A DNA stretch of 64,000 bases from Paraglaciecola sp. MB-3u-78 (GTDB taxonomy: Bacteria > Pseudomonadota > Gammaproteobacteria > Enterobacterales > Alteromonadaceae), in the NCBI RefSeq assembly GCF_002835935.1, contig NZ_PJCF01000006.1, positions 310,001 through 374,000 of the forward strand, written 5' to 3'. The notes beneath the pieces were generated by a model. The model saw only the letters and a program-made list of their open reading frames with translations. It was not told where the DNA came from and searched no databases. Shown here one piece after another: positions 54,552 to 60,777 of this stretch; positions within the stretch are counted from its first letter, which is position 1, and every line of letters starts with the position of its first letter. The position numbers and the translations under genes are program-made.

Positions 54552-56045
54552 GTGTCGGGTAATCACATTACAGAAAGACAAATCAGGTTATATATGAAGT
54601 TACGAGAGAATTTCACACAGGAAGTCGCAGCGAGTAAATCTAGCATTTCCGTCAGCACTGCCGGTCGTATTGAAGGTAATCGACACCAACCTAAAAAGAA
54701 TAAACGAGGGTGGCGAACCAGAGTAGATCCGCTTGAATCAATATGGGATACAGTTGTTTTACCGCTATTAAAGCAAGATGCAAACATAAGCCCTGTTGGT
54801 GTCTTCGACCACTTATGCGATGCCCATTCCGATAAATTCAGTTCATCATCCAGACGAACACTTGAGCGGCGTATCCGCAAGTGGCGACATTTACATGGTC
54901 CTGCTCAAGACGTGATGTTTATGCAGCACCATGAACCTGGAAAGCTCGGGATATGTGATTTTACCCACATCAAGAGTCCCGTAACCATTGATGGTAAGAC
55001 GTTTAAACACATGCTGTTTAATTATCGTTTGCCCGCCAGCGGTTGGGTGTACTCACACGTTATTTATGGTGGAGAAAGCTTTGCTGCCTTCTCCGATGGC
55101 TTACAAAATGCGTTTGCTAAAAGCGAAGGTGTGCCTCAGGAAGTGCGTACAGATAGCTTAAGTGCCGCGTATAAAAACAACAGTTCCGTTGAGGATTTTA
55201 CCGCCAGTTATCAAGAGTTGATCGCGCACTATGGGTTTATTGCAACGCGCAATAATACCGGCGTAGCGCATGAGAATGGCGCGATTGAATCAAGTAATCG
55301 CCATATTAAATCTCAGGTTGAGCAAGCCCTTAAAGTGCGAGGCTCATTCGATTTTAATTGCCGGGTAGAATATGAGTCCTTCGTTCAAAGCGTCACCAGT
55401 CGGCGCAATAAACGCATTGCCGCTAAGTTCGCGCAAGAGCAGCGACAATTACAAGACTTACCTGTGCATAAGAGCGTCAATTACTCACAAGAATACGTGC
55501 GAGTGACGCGCACCAGTACCATCAATGTGAAACGTGTCATGTACACGGTGCCCTCTCGATTAGTGGACAGTCAGGTAAAGGTGCATGTCTATGATGACCA
55601 CTTAGACTTGTTCTTAGGCCACGAACTGACCTATCGCTTAGAGCGCGTTTATGCGTCAGGTGCAACACGCAAACGCAGCGTCAATTACAAACACGTAATC
55701 GACGCACTCGTGAAAAAGCCAAGGGCTTTTAGATGCTCACAATGGCGTGATGAGTTGTTGCCTAATGAGGATTACCGCACCATCTGGCAGTACGTTGAGG
55801 CTACCATGAAGGCAGATGATGCCAGCCGTTACATGGTCAGAATATTACATCTGGGCAGCAAGTTGGATAATGAAATGCGCTTAGGTCGCTTCATAACTAA
55901 CCAACTCAATATCAGTCGATTACCGAGCTTATTTGATTGCCAGGAGCGCTTTGGCGCGAAGCCTAAGGACATCCCACAGGTAAATGTGATGCAGCATCAG
56001 TTGTCGCAATACCAGTCGTTACTGCAAGGCGGTCGTCATGAATAG
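54552..56045 (+). CDS. istA: IS21-family transposase IstA
   Basis: The 497-residue DDE transposase starts with GTG 54552 preceded by GGAGG. It has an N-terminal helix-turn-helix (ITERQIRLYMKLRENFTQEVAA), catalytic candidates in GICDFTHIK (Asp), VRTDSLSAAY (Asp) and GAIESSNRHIK (Glu), and the C-terminal Mu-like beta-barrel region. It overlaps istB by 8 nt. Confidence 0.95.
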   Translation: MSGNHITERQIRLYMKLRENFTQEVAASKSSISVSTAGRIEGNRHQPKKNKRGWRTRVDPLESIWDTVVLPLLKQDANISPVGVFDHLCDAHSDKFSSSSRRTLERRIRKWRHLHGPAQDVMFMQHHEPGKLGICDFTHIKSPVTIDGKTFKHMLFNYRLPASGWVYSHVIYGGESFAAFSDGLQNAFAKSEGVPQEVRTDSLSAAYKNNSSVEDFTASYQELIAHYGFIATRNNTGVAHENGAIESSNRHIKSQVEQALKVRGSFDFNCRVEYESFVQSVTSRRNKRIAAKFAQEQRQLQDLPVHKSVNYSQEYVRVTRTSTINVKRVMYTVPSRLVDSQVKVHVYDDHLDLFLGHELTYRLERVYASGATRKRSVNYKHVIDALVKKPRAFRCSQWRDELLPNEDYRTIWQYVEATMKADDASRYMVRILHLGSKLDNEMRLGRFITNQLNISRLPSLFDCQERFGAKPKDIPQVNVMQHQLSQYQSLLQGGRHE

Positions 56046-56790
56046 TGCAACGGCTTCATTGCCTTTAATGCTCAAACAACTACGTTTAAGTGCCGTTACA
56101 GAGCAGTGGGAAGCTATTGCTGATAAAGCCTTGCACGACCAATGGCGACCCGAACAGTATCTCAGTGAACTATGCCATATTGAACTGGCCAGTCGCACTG
56201 ACAAACGTCAAATGCGCTACATAAAAGAATCGCTGCTGCCGTCTGGCAAGCACTTAGGTGGCTTCGACTTCACGGCCATTGAAGGCCTTAACAAAGCGAG
56301 AATGTACGAGCTTGCGGACAATCACGACTGGGTAAGAAAGGGTGCTAATTTATTGTTGTTCGGAGCCAGTGGCGTAGGTAAAACACATCTGGCGAGTAGC
56401 TTAGGGTACAGCCTGATTGAAGCGGGTACCCGTGTGAAATTCTACTCAGCCAGCGCATTAGTCCAACAGCTACAAGAAGCCAAACAGTCACTCAAATTAC
56501 AAGATGCACTCAACAAACTTGATAAATACCCAGCGCTTATCATTGACGACATTGGTTACGTTAAAAAGACCGAACAAGAAACCAACGTGCTGTTTGAACT
56601 GATTGCACATCGCTATGAAAGACATAGCTTGATCATAACCTCAAATCAATCGTTCGAAGACTGGGACGAGCTATTTACAGATACCACCATGACCGTCGCC
56701 GCTATAGACAGACTAGTTCATCATGCTCACATCATTCAATTAACAGGAGAAAGTTATCGCAGAAAAACAGCTATGAAAGAAGGGAAATAA
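56038..56790 (+). CDS. istB: IS21-family helper ATPase IstB
   Basis: The 250-residue AAA+ protein has Walker A GASGVGKTHLA and Walker B ALIIDDIGYV and the C-terminal GESYRRK motif of IstB. It is needed with IstA for target selection and transposition. The start ATG 56038 overlaps istA, so expression is coupled. Confidence 0.95.
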   Translation: MNSATASLPLMLKQLRLSAVTEQWEAIADKALHDQWRPEQYLSELCHIELASRTDKRQMRYIKESLLPSGKHLGGFDFTAIEGLNKARMYELADNHDWVRKGANLLLFGASGVGKTHLASSLGYSLIEAGTRVKFYSASALVQQLQEAKQSLKLQDALNKLDKYPALIIDDIGYVKKTEQETNVLFELIAHRYERHSLIITSNQSFEDWDELFTDTTMTVAAIDRLVHHAHIIQLTGESYRRKTAMKEGK

Positions 56791-57604: not shown

Positions 57605-58114
57605 TTAATCTTTAAAATCATTAATATTGATAGATTCAAACTGGGAATAAAGATCTGTTTGTTGCTCAGATGATTTTATAGGTTTCTCAGACTCTTCTGT
57701 AAGTCCAAGCATTTCACATAGTACCTTATGTCTTGCTAATGTTTGATTTACGTAGTGCTGGTCTTCTCTGGCAATTTTTTTGCCGAGGTCAATTTTATCC
57801 AACAGGGTAGCTAAACGGGGATCTTGTTCGATTGCGGCAAGTTCCTGATTCGGAGAAAAGTATTTAACTGTTTTTGCTGCTGATTTTTGTGCTTTTGTTT
57901 CTGCAATTAAGCTAACAGGTTTTTTACTTCCATGTCTTGGATCTTTATTGATTTTTTTGGAATCTTGATTAACTGTTTGGGCTTCGTTGTTACGACTTCC
58001 TGCAGGTTTCCCAAGATGTTTTTTGCTTCGTTTTTCAGTCGGTTTACGTACGTTTGAAGGGGTTTTCGAGATGCCTATTTTACCAACTTTTCGAGATTTT
58101 TTTTGCCTAGCCAT
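57605..58114 (-). CDS. yihI: Der GTPase activator YihI
   Basis: YihI stimulates GTP hydrolysis by the ribosome-assembly GTPase Der. The 169-residue protein has a basic N-terminal half (ARQKKSRKVGKIG, KRSKKHLGKPAGSRN) and an acidic conserved core (LAAIEQDPRLATLLDKIDLGKKI). Length equals that of E. coli. Its position relative to the CsrC-like RNA and engB is as in E. coli. Confidence 0.92.
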   Translation of the reverse strand: MARQKKSRKVGKIGISKTPSNVRKPTEKRSKKHLGKPAGSRNNEAQTVNQDSKKINKDPRHGSKKPVSLIAETKAQKSAAKTVKYFSPNQELAAIEQDPRLATLLDKIDLGKKIAREDQHYVNQTLARHKVLCEMLGLTEESEKPIKSSEQQTDLYSQFESININDFKD

Positions 58115-58320: not shown

Positions 58321-58352
58321 AAAAAAAGCGATAGTTCAACTATCGCTTTTTC
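58321..58352 (-). terminator. Terminator of the CsrC-like RNA
   Basis: Stem AAAAAGCGATAG (58323-58334) with CTATCGCTTTTT (58340-58351), T run on the minus strand; the A/T-rich arms could also stop plus-strand transcription. Confidence 0.88.
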
Positions 58353-58593
58353 GTAGATCAGAGTGTCAGCAGACACTTCACCCAATATCTGTTCTTCCTG
58401 AACAACTAATATCCATTTTATCTTCACTTATTATTAATTTTTTCGAAGATTATTTTATTGTTATTGATCGTCCTGATACTTTATGTTCCGTCCATGCTTT
58501 CCCCATTGGGGATTTAGAATGCAAAACAACTCATGTTGTGTTGCTACTTCCCTGACAAGCAATATGCTTGTAATTCCTTTTTGATCTTATTAG
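58321..58593 (-). ncRNA. csrC: CsrB/CsrC-type regulatory RNA (candidate)
   Basis: The gap between yihI and the engB locus is where E. coli carries csrC, and orientation is the same relative to polA and yihI. On the minus strand a promoter-like TTGTAA, 16-bp spacer and TATTCT (58600-58605) is followed by about 270 nt with GGA-type CsrA motifs: AAGGA, CAGGGA, GGGGA, TGGACGGA, CAGGA, ATGGA and CAGGAAG. It ends in a strong hairpin with arms 58323-58334 and 58340-58351 and a T run. Such RNAs sequester CsrA. No open frame is inside. Exact 5' end is inferred. Confidence 0.7.
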
Positions 58594-58677
58594 CTCAGGA
58601 GAATACAGGATTAACAAAAATTTACAACTTATTTACAATTGAGATATAAAATAAGTGAACTTTTTCTGAAATATAAA

Positions 58678-58712
58678 AACGCAACTAATAACAAATTGGC
58701 TATTAGTTGCGA
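58678..58712 (-). terminator. Terminator after cytochrome c4
   Basis: Arms CGCAACTAATA (58680-58690) and TATTAGTTGCG (58701-58711), followed on the minus strand by TTTTT. It separates the cytochrome gene from the downstream CsrC-like RNA, which therefore needs its own promoter. Confidence 0.88.
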
Positions 58713-58722
58713 AAATACTTAA

Positions 58723-59346
58723 CTAATGAAGGCCAGCAACGTAGTTTGAAATCACTTGAATGTCTTCGTCAGTTAATCTTTTAGCAATGTCAGCCATCAT
58801 GCCATTTAAAGAATTGGCTCTTTCACCAGAACGAAAAGATTTTAGCTGAGTGGCTATATAATCTGAATGTTGACCACTTATGTCGGGAAAACCAGAAAGG
58901 CTAGTGCCATTGCCTTTTGGGCCATGACAGGCAATACATGCTGTTATACCTCGTTTTAAATCTCCACCAACATATAGTTTGTTACCTTGTACGACAGCAT
59001 CTTGTGAAGATTCGCCTGGTGTTGCCTTTTGACTTGAAAAATATGCGGCCAAATCAAGAATGTCTTGTTCCGATAACGCAGCTGACATGCCATTCATTAC
59101 CGCATTATTTCTGCCTTCTTTTCCACCTGTTGTGCTGGCTAATTTAAATTCTGTTAATTGTTTAACTAAATATTGTGCATGTTGCCCAGCAAGTTTCGGG
59201 TTCATTGGTATTGCACTATTTCCATCTGCGCCATGGCATGCGCCACAAGTAACAGATTTCACCTTACCGTTTTCAGCATTACCTTGTTCAGCCGCATTGA
59301 CACTTAAGCCCATAAACAAACAGACTAGCAGACCTATTTTTTTCAT
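58723..59346 (-). CDS. Dihaem cytochrome c4
   Basis: The 207-residue periplasmic protein has a signal peptide (KKIGLLVCLFMGLSVNA) and two c-type haem sites, CGACH and CIACH, each followed by a downstream Met ligand region (NGMSAALS and NGMMADIA). This duplicated structure is that of cytochrome c4, an electron donor to terminal oxidases. ATG 59346 is chosen; ATG 59364 upstream lacks a signal-peptide-like start. It is divergent from engB, a pairing common in this group. Confidence 0.93.
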   Translation of the reverse strand: MKKIGLLVCLFMGLSVNAAEQGNAENGKVKSVTCGACHGADGNSAIPMNPKLAGQHAQYLVKQLTEFKLASTTGGKEGRNNAVMNGMSAALSEQDILDLAAYFSSQKATPGESSQDAVVQGNKLYVGGDLKRGITACIACHGPKGNGTSLSGFPDISGQHSDYIATQLKSFRSGERANSLNGMMADIAKRLTDEDIQVISNYVAGLH

Positions 59347-59549
59347 CTTTATCTCATTAAGCATTTAATTAGCTGCCTATTCTTAAATCATTGACTGAGT
59401 ATTTTACACATTTACGCCGACAGTAAAATAAAATCATTTAATAAGTTGTGTTTTTATCTGATTTTAAAGAGCACAGTGATTCTCCTTTTCCCTGATATAA
59501 TGATCAGAATTATGATAAAAACAGTTTTGTAGAGTTTTCAGGAGTAAGT

Positions 59550-60158
59550 GTGAGTCATTATAGTCAAGCAAAGTTTAGTATCAGCGCCCCTGATATTACG
59601 CACCTAGGACCAGACGAAGGTATAGAAATTGCTTTTGCCGGTCGTTCAAATGCCGGCAAGTCCAGCGCGTTAAACAAATTAACTCGGCAAAAAGGGTTGG
59701 CACGAACTAGCAAAACGCCGGGTCGGACACAATTGATCAATGTGTTTCAGCTAGATGGAAACCGGCGGTTAATAGACCTGCCGGGCTATGGGTATGCAAA
59801 AGTACCCATAGCTATAAAAAAGAAATGGCAAAAATCTTTGGGTGAATATTTACAAAAAAGAGAGAGCATTAAAGGACTAGTAGTATTGATGGACATTCGT
59901 CACCCCTTTAAAGACTTAGATCAAGACTTAATACATTGGGCAGTCGCTGCAGATTTACCTGTACTTGCGCTTCTCACTAAAGCTGACAAATTTAAATCTG
60001 GTAAACGTAAAAATCAGCTAATGATGGCCCGAGAAGCGGCGCTGGCTTTTTGTGGGGATGTAACTGTTGATGTTTTTTCGTCCCTGAGTGGCATTGGACT
60101 GGAAAATTTGCAATTAAAGCTAGATGGCTGGTATGGCTATGAAAAGAATATTATTTAA
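59550..60158 (+). CDS. engB: Ribosome biogenesis GTPase EngB (YihA)
   Basis: EngB is an essential GTPase for 50S assembly. The 202-residue protein has G1 GRSNAGKSS (residues 31-39), G3 DLPGYGYAK and G4 TKADK. Start is GTG 59550 with AGGAG 6 nt before it. It is transcribed against polA. Confidence 0.96.
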
Positions 60159-60267
60159 TTTATAAACGGTCAAAACAAATTTTTAGGACAAAGCAAAGAC
60201 GAAATATATAAAAACTGAATGATAAACAATCCAATATTTCAAAATAGTTTTTTCTTTCATTATTTTA

Positions 60268-60296
60268 GGCAAAAAAAAACCCATTAAAAAATGGGG
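60268..60296 (-). terminator. Minus-strand terminator downstream of engB
   Basis: CCCATT (60280-60285) pairs with AATGGG (60290-60295) and nine T residues follow on the minus strand. It would stop leftward transcripts from the polA side before they run into engB. Confidence 0.75.
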
Positions 60297-60379
60297 TAAA
60301 ACACATAGAGACACACATAAACTATAAATAAGAGCCTAGCAAAAACATAAAGTTCAAAATAATTTTATTTTTTTGAGAT

Positions 60380-60437
60380 AAAAAAAACCGGCATTGACCG
60401 AGGTTTAAGCAACGGTTAGAAATATCTGACCTCTACG
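60380..60437 (-). ncRNA. Possible small RNA at the Spot 42 position
   Basis: On the minus strand, TTGGCT, a 17-bp spacer and TAAACT form a promoter-like pair, followed 6-7 nt later by GTAGAGGTCAGATATTTCTA. This start resembles the conserved 5' part of Spot 42 (AGAGGTAAGAT...CTA). The transcript would end about 58 nt later at an AACCG...CGGTT hairpin with eight T residues. The site downstream of polA matches Spot 42 in other gammaproteobacteria, but it is shorter than the usual 109 nt and the hairpin is imperfect. Confidence 0.35.
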
Positions 60438-60505
60438 CACAGAGTTTATTCAAAAAGTACCTTTAAGCCAAGTTTGTTTTGTAATTTAAGCGCTCGATTG
60501 AATAA

Positions 60506-60770
60506 TATACTCATACCACCTCAAAATGTCGGATTCAGCGGGAGTCTAAAGCGGTTTAGTCGAGGCGGCTATTTGTAGGCTTAGTAATCTAAGTCAAAAA
60601 TGGCCAACGCAGAATAAATCGCTTTAAAACCCGACCGAAGGGAACGACTGGGGCACTCCACTTCTTCGTTGAGTCAATTCAGAAGGTGGCCAACATTCAG
60701 TCATTGACGCGCCTTAAATTGAAGCGCCCCAGTCGTTCTGAATCACACATTTTGAGGTGATATGGGTATA
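60506..60770. repeat. MITE-like element of 265 bp
   Basis: Terminal inverted repeats at 60506-60538 and 60738-60770 share CACCTCAAAATGT and GATTCAG with a few mismatches over 33 bp. Inside, GAACGACTGGGGC (60642-60654) and GCCCCAGTCGTTC (60726-60738) form a second perfect pair. No coding frame is present. TA at both outer ends is compatible with TA target use. It lies between the RNA candidate and polA. Confidence 0.75.
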
Positions 60771-60777
60771 GATAAGC

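Follow-up and report, generated by a model that had tools for sequence, protein, structure and literature searches.

Results

A small RNA gene between a cytochrome c4-like gene and yihI

In the window, by which we mean the whole 64-kb stretch of DNA that was analysed, a putative small RNA gene of ~275 nt occupies the minus strand of the gap that separates a cytochrome c4-like gene from yihI (58321..58593, predicted start ~58593). It was assigned to the CsrC/Pf3 type from its match to R1, a covariance model built from the genus alignment A1, from its fold and from its conservation in the genus. Downstream lies a yihI-like gene (57605..58114, minus strand; ORF of 169 aa), upstream the cytochrome c4-like gene (58723..59364, minus strand; ORF of 213 aa with two CxxCH motifs), and homologues of both were found at the equivalent places in relatives. 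A divergent gene for an EngB/YihA GTPase (59550..60158, plus strand; ORF of 202 aa) served as anchor, and an engB match was obtained in all 118 family genomes searched. The names yihI, cytochrome c4 and engB/yihA are those we take to fit the neighbouring ORFs. Further away, two adjacent plus-strand ORFs of 497 and 250 aa (54552-56790) were seen near a hypothetical gene beside yihI; this pair reads like istA/istB of the IS21 type. A search of plasmid DNA with the locus gave no match. A search for Spot 42, which is located at polA/yihA in Salmonella (PMC2515195), gave no match up to E = 10 in the engB-polA gap (60159-60777).

The first-pass annotation had described the gap as free of reading frames. 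Indeed, only a 52-aa frame with a GTG start was found (58427-58269), which reads across the terminator of the RNA gene and whose start codon is missing in relatives such as L004. There is no convincing protein frame in the RNA gene.

Promoter and terminator

The proposed promoter-like pair is present on the minus strand and comprises TTGTAA (58627-58622), a 16-nt spacer and TATTCT (58605-58600), with a TG ahead of TATTCT. Of the 21 genus loci, L012 alone lacks a recognisable pair. The extended -10 element TGTATTCT (58600..58607, minus strand) is exact in 17 of the 21 loci, one base off in three and absent from L012. The -35 element is the downstream copy of a direct repeat, TTGTAAA-4-TTGTAAA, with a period of 11 nt (58621..58638, minus strand); the form TGTAAA-5-TGTAA is kept in 20 of the 21 genus loci and, judged by eye, in ~20 of the 42 rows of a wider alignment. 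A UvrY/GacA box is frequent, though not universal, upstream of Csr sRNAs. With up to three mismatches to TGTAAGN6CTTACA, none was listed near the RNA promoter. As a marker of Pseudoalteromonas, the GacA box given for Pf1 was looked for in 118 family genomes and occurred in 0 of them. The TTGTAAA repeat is distinct from the palindromic UvrY/GacA box, and the TGTAAA-5-TGTAA repeat is the better candidate for a control element. A consensus scan for promoters and terminators listed neither the promoter pair (8/12 matches, under the limit of the scan) nor the main terminator, and a promoter pattern that was drawn too tightly gave nothing in 131 loci, though the alignments show the element clearly.

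The RNA gene ends in an intrinsic terminator with a stem of 13 bp (58321..58351, minus strand). Its segment folds with -16.1 kcal/mol (z -5.4), which bears out the strong terminator that had been claimed; 94.7% of the alignment cells are paired, and seven of the 13 pairs have double changes. As far as can be read from the DNA, the gene thus has its own promoter and a Rho-independent terminator and encodes no protein, as is typical of a Csr sRNA. The cytochrome gene, which lies upstream on the same strand, could suggest that there is no RNA gene at all, the gap being made up of a 3' region or terminator that belongs to the cytochrome gene and of a purine-rich spacer that arose by chance. This reading is very improbable: directly behind the cytochrome gene there is a separate terminator-like hairpin (58680-58711, minus strand), which parts the cytochrome gene from the RNA gene, and the conserved promoter, the covarying helices and the R1 matches contradict it.

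Fold and covariation

The whole RNA folds with -68.9 kcal/mol (z -4.9), and none of 200 shuffled sequences folded as well. The consensus structure was derived from alignment A1, which contains 19 of the 21 genus loci; before it was built, L012 was dropped for its diverged 5' end and L017 as a near-copy of L016. The structure has six helices, all on the minus strand, with 91.3% of cells paired and 18 pairs changed on both sides. The first hairpin, ACAAGC-AUAUU-GCUUGU (58555..58571; segment -6.9 kcal/mol), has double changes in four of its six pairs, with only 71.9% of cells paired. It is followed by a short hairpin, AUC-AGGAC-GAU (58467..58477), with a GGA in the loop and 100% of cells paired; nine of the 19 rows close this loop with A-U and ten with G-C, and the isolated segment has no fold of its own (0 kcal/mol). 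A third hairpin, AUCUUC-GAAGAU with a loop of 19 nt rich in A/U (58420..58450), is paired in 93.9% of cells and has double changes in four of six pairs. The hairpin UGUUC-AGGAA-GAACA (58390..58404; segment -3.9 kcal/mol, z -3.1) has a GGA in its five-base loop, which we take to be the classic shape of a CsrA site; 88.2% of its cells are paired, with one-sided changes only. The hairpin GUGUC-UGCU-GACAC (58363..58376; 100% of cells paired, two pairs with double changes) precedes the terminator.

The covariation score of the A1 structure was 0.300 compared to 0.188 +/- 0.010 for shuffled alignments, and none of 500 shuffles reached 0.300; this control leaves the relatedness of the rows unremoved. 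Controls in which the structure was slid along the alignment, and which keep the relatedness, peaked at 0.153. A further measure, based on how many pair types occur, did not exceed that of shuffled alignments (249/500 shuffles).

GGA motifs

About eight GGA motifs in ~270 nt had been noted. Exactly eight were counted in 278 nt, compared to one TCC, with their first G at 58577, 58551, 58502, 58493, 58489, 58473, 58414 and 58398 (span 58396..58577, minus strand). The count alone is weak evidence: at least eight GGAs occurred in 378 of 5000 dinucleotide and in 168 of 5000 mononucleotide shuffles, so that by itself it is not significant against dinucleotide shuffles. When both strands of the 64 kb were cut into 12,746 overlapping segments of 278 nt, 24 of these had at least eight. 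The count reached p < 0.05 in only seven of 19 genus copies, and a shuffle test on whole gaps gave p < 0.05 in few loci, being uninformative where gaps are long.

It is conservation, as seen in the genus alignment, the covariation and the R1 matches, that turns this weak count into a firm result. In a comparison with the 18 other A1 rows, six of the eight motifs recur in 72-100% of them; those at 58502 and 58489 are common to only one of the 18. Over the genus alignments, one without L012 (20 rows) and the other A1 (19 rows), the mean conservation of GGA triplets was 0.68 compared to 0.36 for all triplets; TTT, which is carried by the terminator, equals GGA at two decimals, these two triplets ranking highest, and 274 of 100,000 random triplet sets matched the conservation of GGA. 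A GGGAGA site of many relatives reads GGGTGA in the window copy.

Folding had been proposed as a way to see whether the GGAs fall in loops, and it gave a mixed picture. Two of them lie in the loops of small conserved hairpins, and four of the eight have an unpaired probability of at least 0.5 at all three bases. In two, the first G is unpaired with ~0.3 and the other bases with at least 0.7, whereas the GGAs at 58551 and 58502 are mostly paired in the fold of the window RNA.

A conserved small RNA that acts differently, for instance by base pairing, and whose GGAs are incidental purine-rich spacers would fit with the unremarkable number of GGAs against dinucleotide shuffles and with conserved blocks that are not GGA, among them AUAAAG and the A/U-rich loop of the third hairpin. 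We consider this unlikely; the retention of six of the eight GGAs speaks against incidental motifs.

Distribution in the genus, the family and beyond

The RNA was found at the equivalent place in 21 of 22 genus genomes by a combination of DNA search, loci fetched via EngB or cytochrome matches, and R1; the DNA search alone matched 18 of the 22. In 19 of the 21 loci it has the cytochrome c4 gene on one side and yihI on the other, and in L008 and L014 the contig ends before yihI is reached. The remaining genome, G018 (L128), had no R1 match at E ≤ 0.1, and its cytochrome match was only 50% identical. R1, whose E-values are rough, matched the window RNA with 255.9 bits over model positions 1-279, a score obtained with a training set that included the window sequence; among the matches listed this was the only full-length one in the genome of 6.48 Mb. 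The two loci left out of A1 were matched as well, L012 with 117.8 and L017 with 248.4 bits.

Outside the genus, 58 family loci were drawn from 113 family genomes, one for each of 48 genera and ten more, and 20 loci were drawn from 55 genomes of other families. With a limit of 23.7 bits, which was chosen after the list had been seen, R1 matched in the correct gap and on the correct strand in 37 of the 58 family loci and in four of the 20 loci from other families. Where yihI was in reach, 34 of 36 family loci had a match; without yihI there were three of 22, and for these three the check covered only the strand and the cytochrome side of the gap. Nineteen of the 58 family loci (L046, L048, L051 and 16 more) lack both: yihI is out of reach of engB, and no R1 match attains 23.7 bits. 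The strongest match in other families was L123 with 53.8 bits, which shares the AUAAAGUGUC.GGAUGACC core, whereas the 23.7 bits of the enterobacteria-type locus L113 came largely via the terminator. R1 also matched a CsrB-type locus, L026, weakly (19.7 and 18.5 bits). In L114, L117, L121 and L123, all from outside the family, 11 to 16 GGAs were counted in 260 nt between engB and yihI, and these GGA-rich stretches gave no Rfam match at E 0.1. From the sequences, a common descent of the gene is likely for the marine genera.

Relation to enterobacterial CsrC

The first-pass annotation had suspected that the RNA is too diverged for automatic annotation, and Rfam was indeed silent on the window copy: nothing was found in the 64-kb window at gathering thresholds, and up to E = 10 the locus gave no Csr family, RF00018 and RF00084 both being without a match. 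Other low-scoring matches at the locus (a snoRNA, a plastid family and a Streptococcus sRNA) were taken as chance. In relatives, a covariance-model search left the assignment standing. RF00084 (CsrC) matched in the same gap and on the same strand in four of the 19 genus relatives searched, with 31.0 bits in L044 (E 1.5e-5), 29.2 in L018, 25.2 in L016 and 21.3 in L045, and in one locus from another family (L109, 24.4 bits), so that even the best relative, with 31.0 bits, stays below the gathering threshold of 61. Rfam searches with E-values covered 20 of the 58 family loci and 16 of the 20 from other families. In L064, RF00084 matched on both strands with the terminator part of the model only, and these matches were not counted. 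In L113, the RF00084 match listed is likewise confined to the terminator and lies on the opposite strand; on the right strand RF02767 scored 48.5 bits, under its gathering threshold of 279. The RF00084 matches in relatives argue against a small RNA of another kind.

In Salmonella, csrC is located between yihA and yihI in the orientation '<- -> ->' (PMC2515195, Table 2). The window RNA adjoins yihI on the same strand, with engB divergent, and thus takes the place of a csrC orthologue; the claimed equivalence of place and orientation was correct, with one addition, the cytochrome c4-like gene between engB and the RNA. The window RNA therefore resembles CsrC in its position and orientation beside yihI and engB/yihA, in its several GGAs and its terminator, and through the sub-threshold matches of its genus relatives. 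It differs from CsrC in that the window copy itself has no RF00084 match and that a cytochrome c4 gene intervenes; moreover, the similarity of R1 to the enterobacteria-type L113 is mostly in the terminator, and L113 lacks the excess of AAN triplets described below. A descent of enterobacterial csrC from the same gene is probable rather than proven, and it is the gene order that argues for it.

Relation to Pf3 of Pseudoalteromonas fuliginea

A core pattern was run over named genomes and matched in P. fuliginea KMM 216, in which an A/U-rich RNA with nine GGAs occupies the same gap (engB / cytochrome c4 / [RNA] / yihI). The core common to this RNA and that of the window is TCAGGAnGA(C/U)CnAUAAnAAUAAA. 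R1 scored 28.7 bits on the P. fuliginea RNA, with a large correction for composition (bias 32.9), and this score is partly selected, because the locus was fetched by a pattern taken from alignments of the window and L062; L062 itself had been matched by R1 before the pattern search. Among 19 matches of the core pattern, ten had an R1 match with E < 1e-4 and nine had none; the latter, by title from Bacteroidota, Desulfobulbaceae, Nitrospinae and Aminicenantes, look like chance.

Three Csr sRNAs with 25, 21 and 9 GGAs are described for P. fuliginea, the third of which is Pf3 (PMC11882849). In that work, CsrA retarded Pf3 in EMSA; CsrA RIP-seq of the wild type gave its third-highest peak on Pf3, and in E. 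coli Pf3 increased glycogen. We infer that the gap RNA is Pf3 from the species, the nine GGAs, the AAT-richness and the gap; Pf3, with the locus tags D172_RS16045/RS16040, is from a different strain, BSW20308. On this assignment, the window RNA would be a homologue of Pf3 in the same gap, and an RNA that binds CsrA at the same place in Pseudoalteromonas is a further argument against a small RNA of another kind. The window copy differs from Pf3 in having eight GGAs and only three AAN motifs compared to 17 in the P. fuliginea RNA. Outside Pseudoalteromonas, the available text of PMC11882849 names one bacterial match to Pf3, in Thalassotalea sp. LPB0316, besides eukaryotic sequences; the zebrafish sequences aligning with Pf3 are noted there to contain TAA/AAT-rich repeats. 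Csr-type sRNAs are also described for another marine relative, Alteromonas macleodii Te101, in which a single gap of 404 nt (Te101_04650/04655) gives rise to three short RNAs, Aln1a-c, whose A(N)GGA motifs are single-stranded (PMC5864184).

CsrA and a second Csr RNA in the genome

CsrA is encoded in the same genome (PF02599, 87.5 bits). A large CsrB-type RNA was found elsewhere in it (G000:C45:358170-358494; L129:1501-2010, minus strand), with 35 GGAs in the 510 nt examined and an RF00018 score of 33.8 bits, compared to a gathering threshold of 71. Being below that threshold, the CsrB RNA, too, may be missed by automatic annotation. RF00018 matched in 19 of 60 relatives, in nine above the cut-off; the sole genus member matched among these 60, G010, had its match at another place than the engB/yihI gap. 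The window RNA shares with CsrB that it is GGA-rich and of the Csr type, whereas the CsrB of this genome is much larger and denser in GGAs, has other neighbours and is matched by RF00018.

AAN triplets and Hfq

Many RNAs of the family carry AAN triplets between their GGAs. In 29 RNAs, about one per genus, the strict form AA.AA.AA (N not A) occurred 74 times compared to 9.1 expected; none of the other ways to place six A in eight positions, 28 in total, was as enriched. The loose form was counted 166 times in the RNAs, with 34.8 expected; in the 75 nt upstream (24 RNAs) 9 were counted and 8.6 expected, and antisense 4 and 2.9, so that neither shows an excess. AAN coverage was above that of shuffled sequences (p < 0.05) in 16 of 19 genus RNAs, 19 of 29 other family RNAs and three of three Pseudoalteromonas RNAs. 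The 29 RNAs of the triplet count and the 57 used for coverage were hand-picked, mostly from R1 matches, and since the sequences are related the counts are not independent. Ten of the 29 other family RNAs were without enrichment, L113 and the genome's own CsrB had no excess, and the window copy has three motifs covering 19 nt compared to 7.0 expected (p 0.08).

Hfq, whose distal face binds triplets of this type, is encoded in the same genome (103.6 bits). CrcZ of Pseudomonas (RF01675) titrates Hfq via A-rich stretches, which bind its distal face, and another RNA, RsmY, is stabilised by Hfq binding (PMC4063720). The RNA could thus have a dual function, as a cross of CsrC and CrcZ, in which the GGAs hold CsrA and the AAN tracts hold the distal face of Hfq, the molecule titrating both proteins or being protected by them. 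We regard this as possible, though doubtful; it extends the explanation as a CsrA sponge and does not exclude it. The P. fuliginea RNA gave faint RF01675 matches (E 0.03 and 0.065; 17.1 and 15.9 bits) under a gathering threshold of 95, whereas the window copy gave none, and in the available text of PMC4063720 CrcZ is not described as a GGA/CsrA sponge. Salmonella CsrC was not enriched on Hfq, with 63 reads in the control and 64 with Hfq in the available data of PMC2515195, and a plain alternative is that the AAN tracts are mere unstructured spacers. The available text of PMC11882849 reports no test of Pf3 against Hfq. A dual CsrA/Hfq RNA was unnamed in the titles and abstract openings searched, a statement that concerns these and not the printed literature as a whole.

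Discussion

The first-pass annotation had placed a CsrB/CsrC-type RNA at the csrC position, and this is supported by the conservation, the covariation, the RF00084 matches in relatives and the R1 match to P. fuliginea. We consider it highly probable that the gene encodes a stand-alone, non-coding, CsrA-sequestering RNA of the CsrC/Pf3 type, which exists beside a larger CsrB. By place and similarity, the window RNA appears to be an orthologue of the RNA taken as Pf3, and probably of enterobacterial CsrC, too.

By analogy with Pf3, the RNA would be transcribed in Paraglaciecola and would bind and sequester CsrA. RNA polymerase would start near 58593 at TTGTAA/TGTATTCT and stop at the terminator near 58321. 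Several CsrA dimers would bind to the GGA motifs and would thereby be drawn off their mRNA targets, so that the level of the RNA would set that of free CsrA. Because the genome has CsrA, Hfq and a much larger CsrB elsewhere, the window RNA may act together with CsrB as a minor, differently driven sponge.

For Paraglaciecola, this would add an unannotated global regulator. Pf3 would gain a place in a family-wide gene and a probable link to CsrC, and a csrC-type gene that escapes Rfam thresholds proves traceable from one marine genus to another through gene order combined with a covariance model. More tentatively, the Csr RNA linked to engB/yihI may be a two-protein sponge in the family, of which the window copy would have lost most of the Hfq part. 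If so, the two global RNA-binding systems of CsrA and Hfq would be joined in one molecule, and the AAT repeats set beside zebrafish sequences in the Pf3 paper would be Hfq sites; the excess of AAN triplets makes this link between CsrA and Hfq directly testable.
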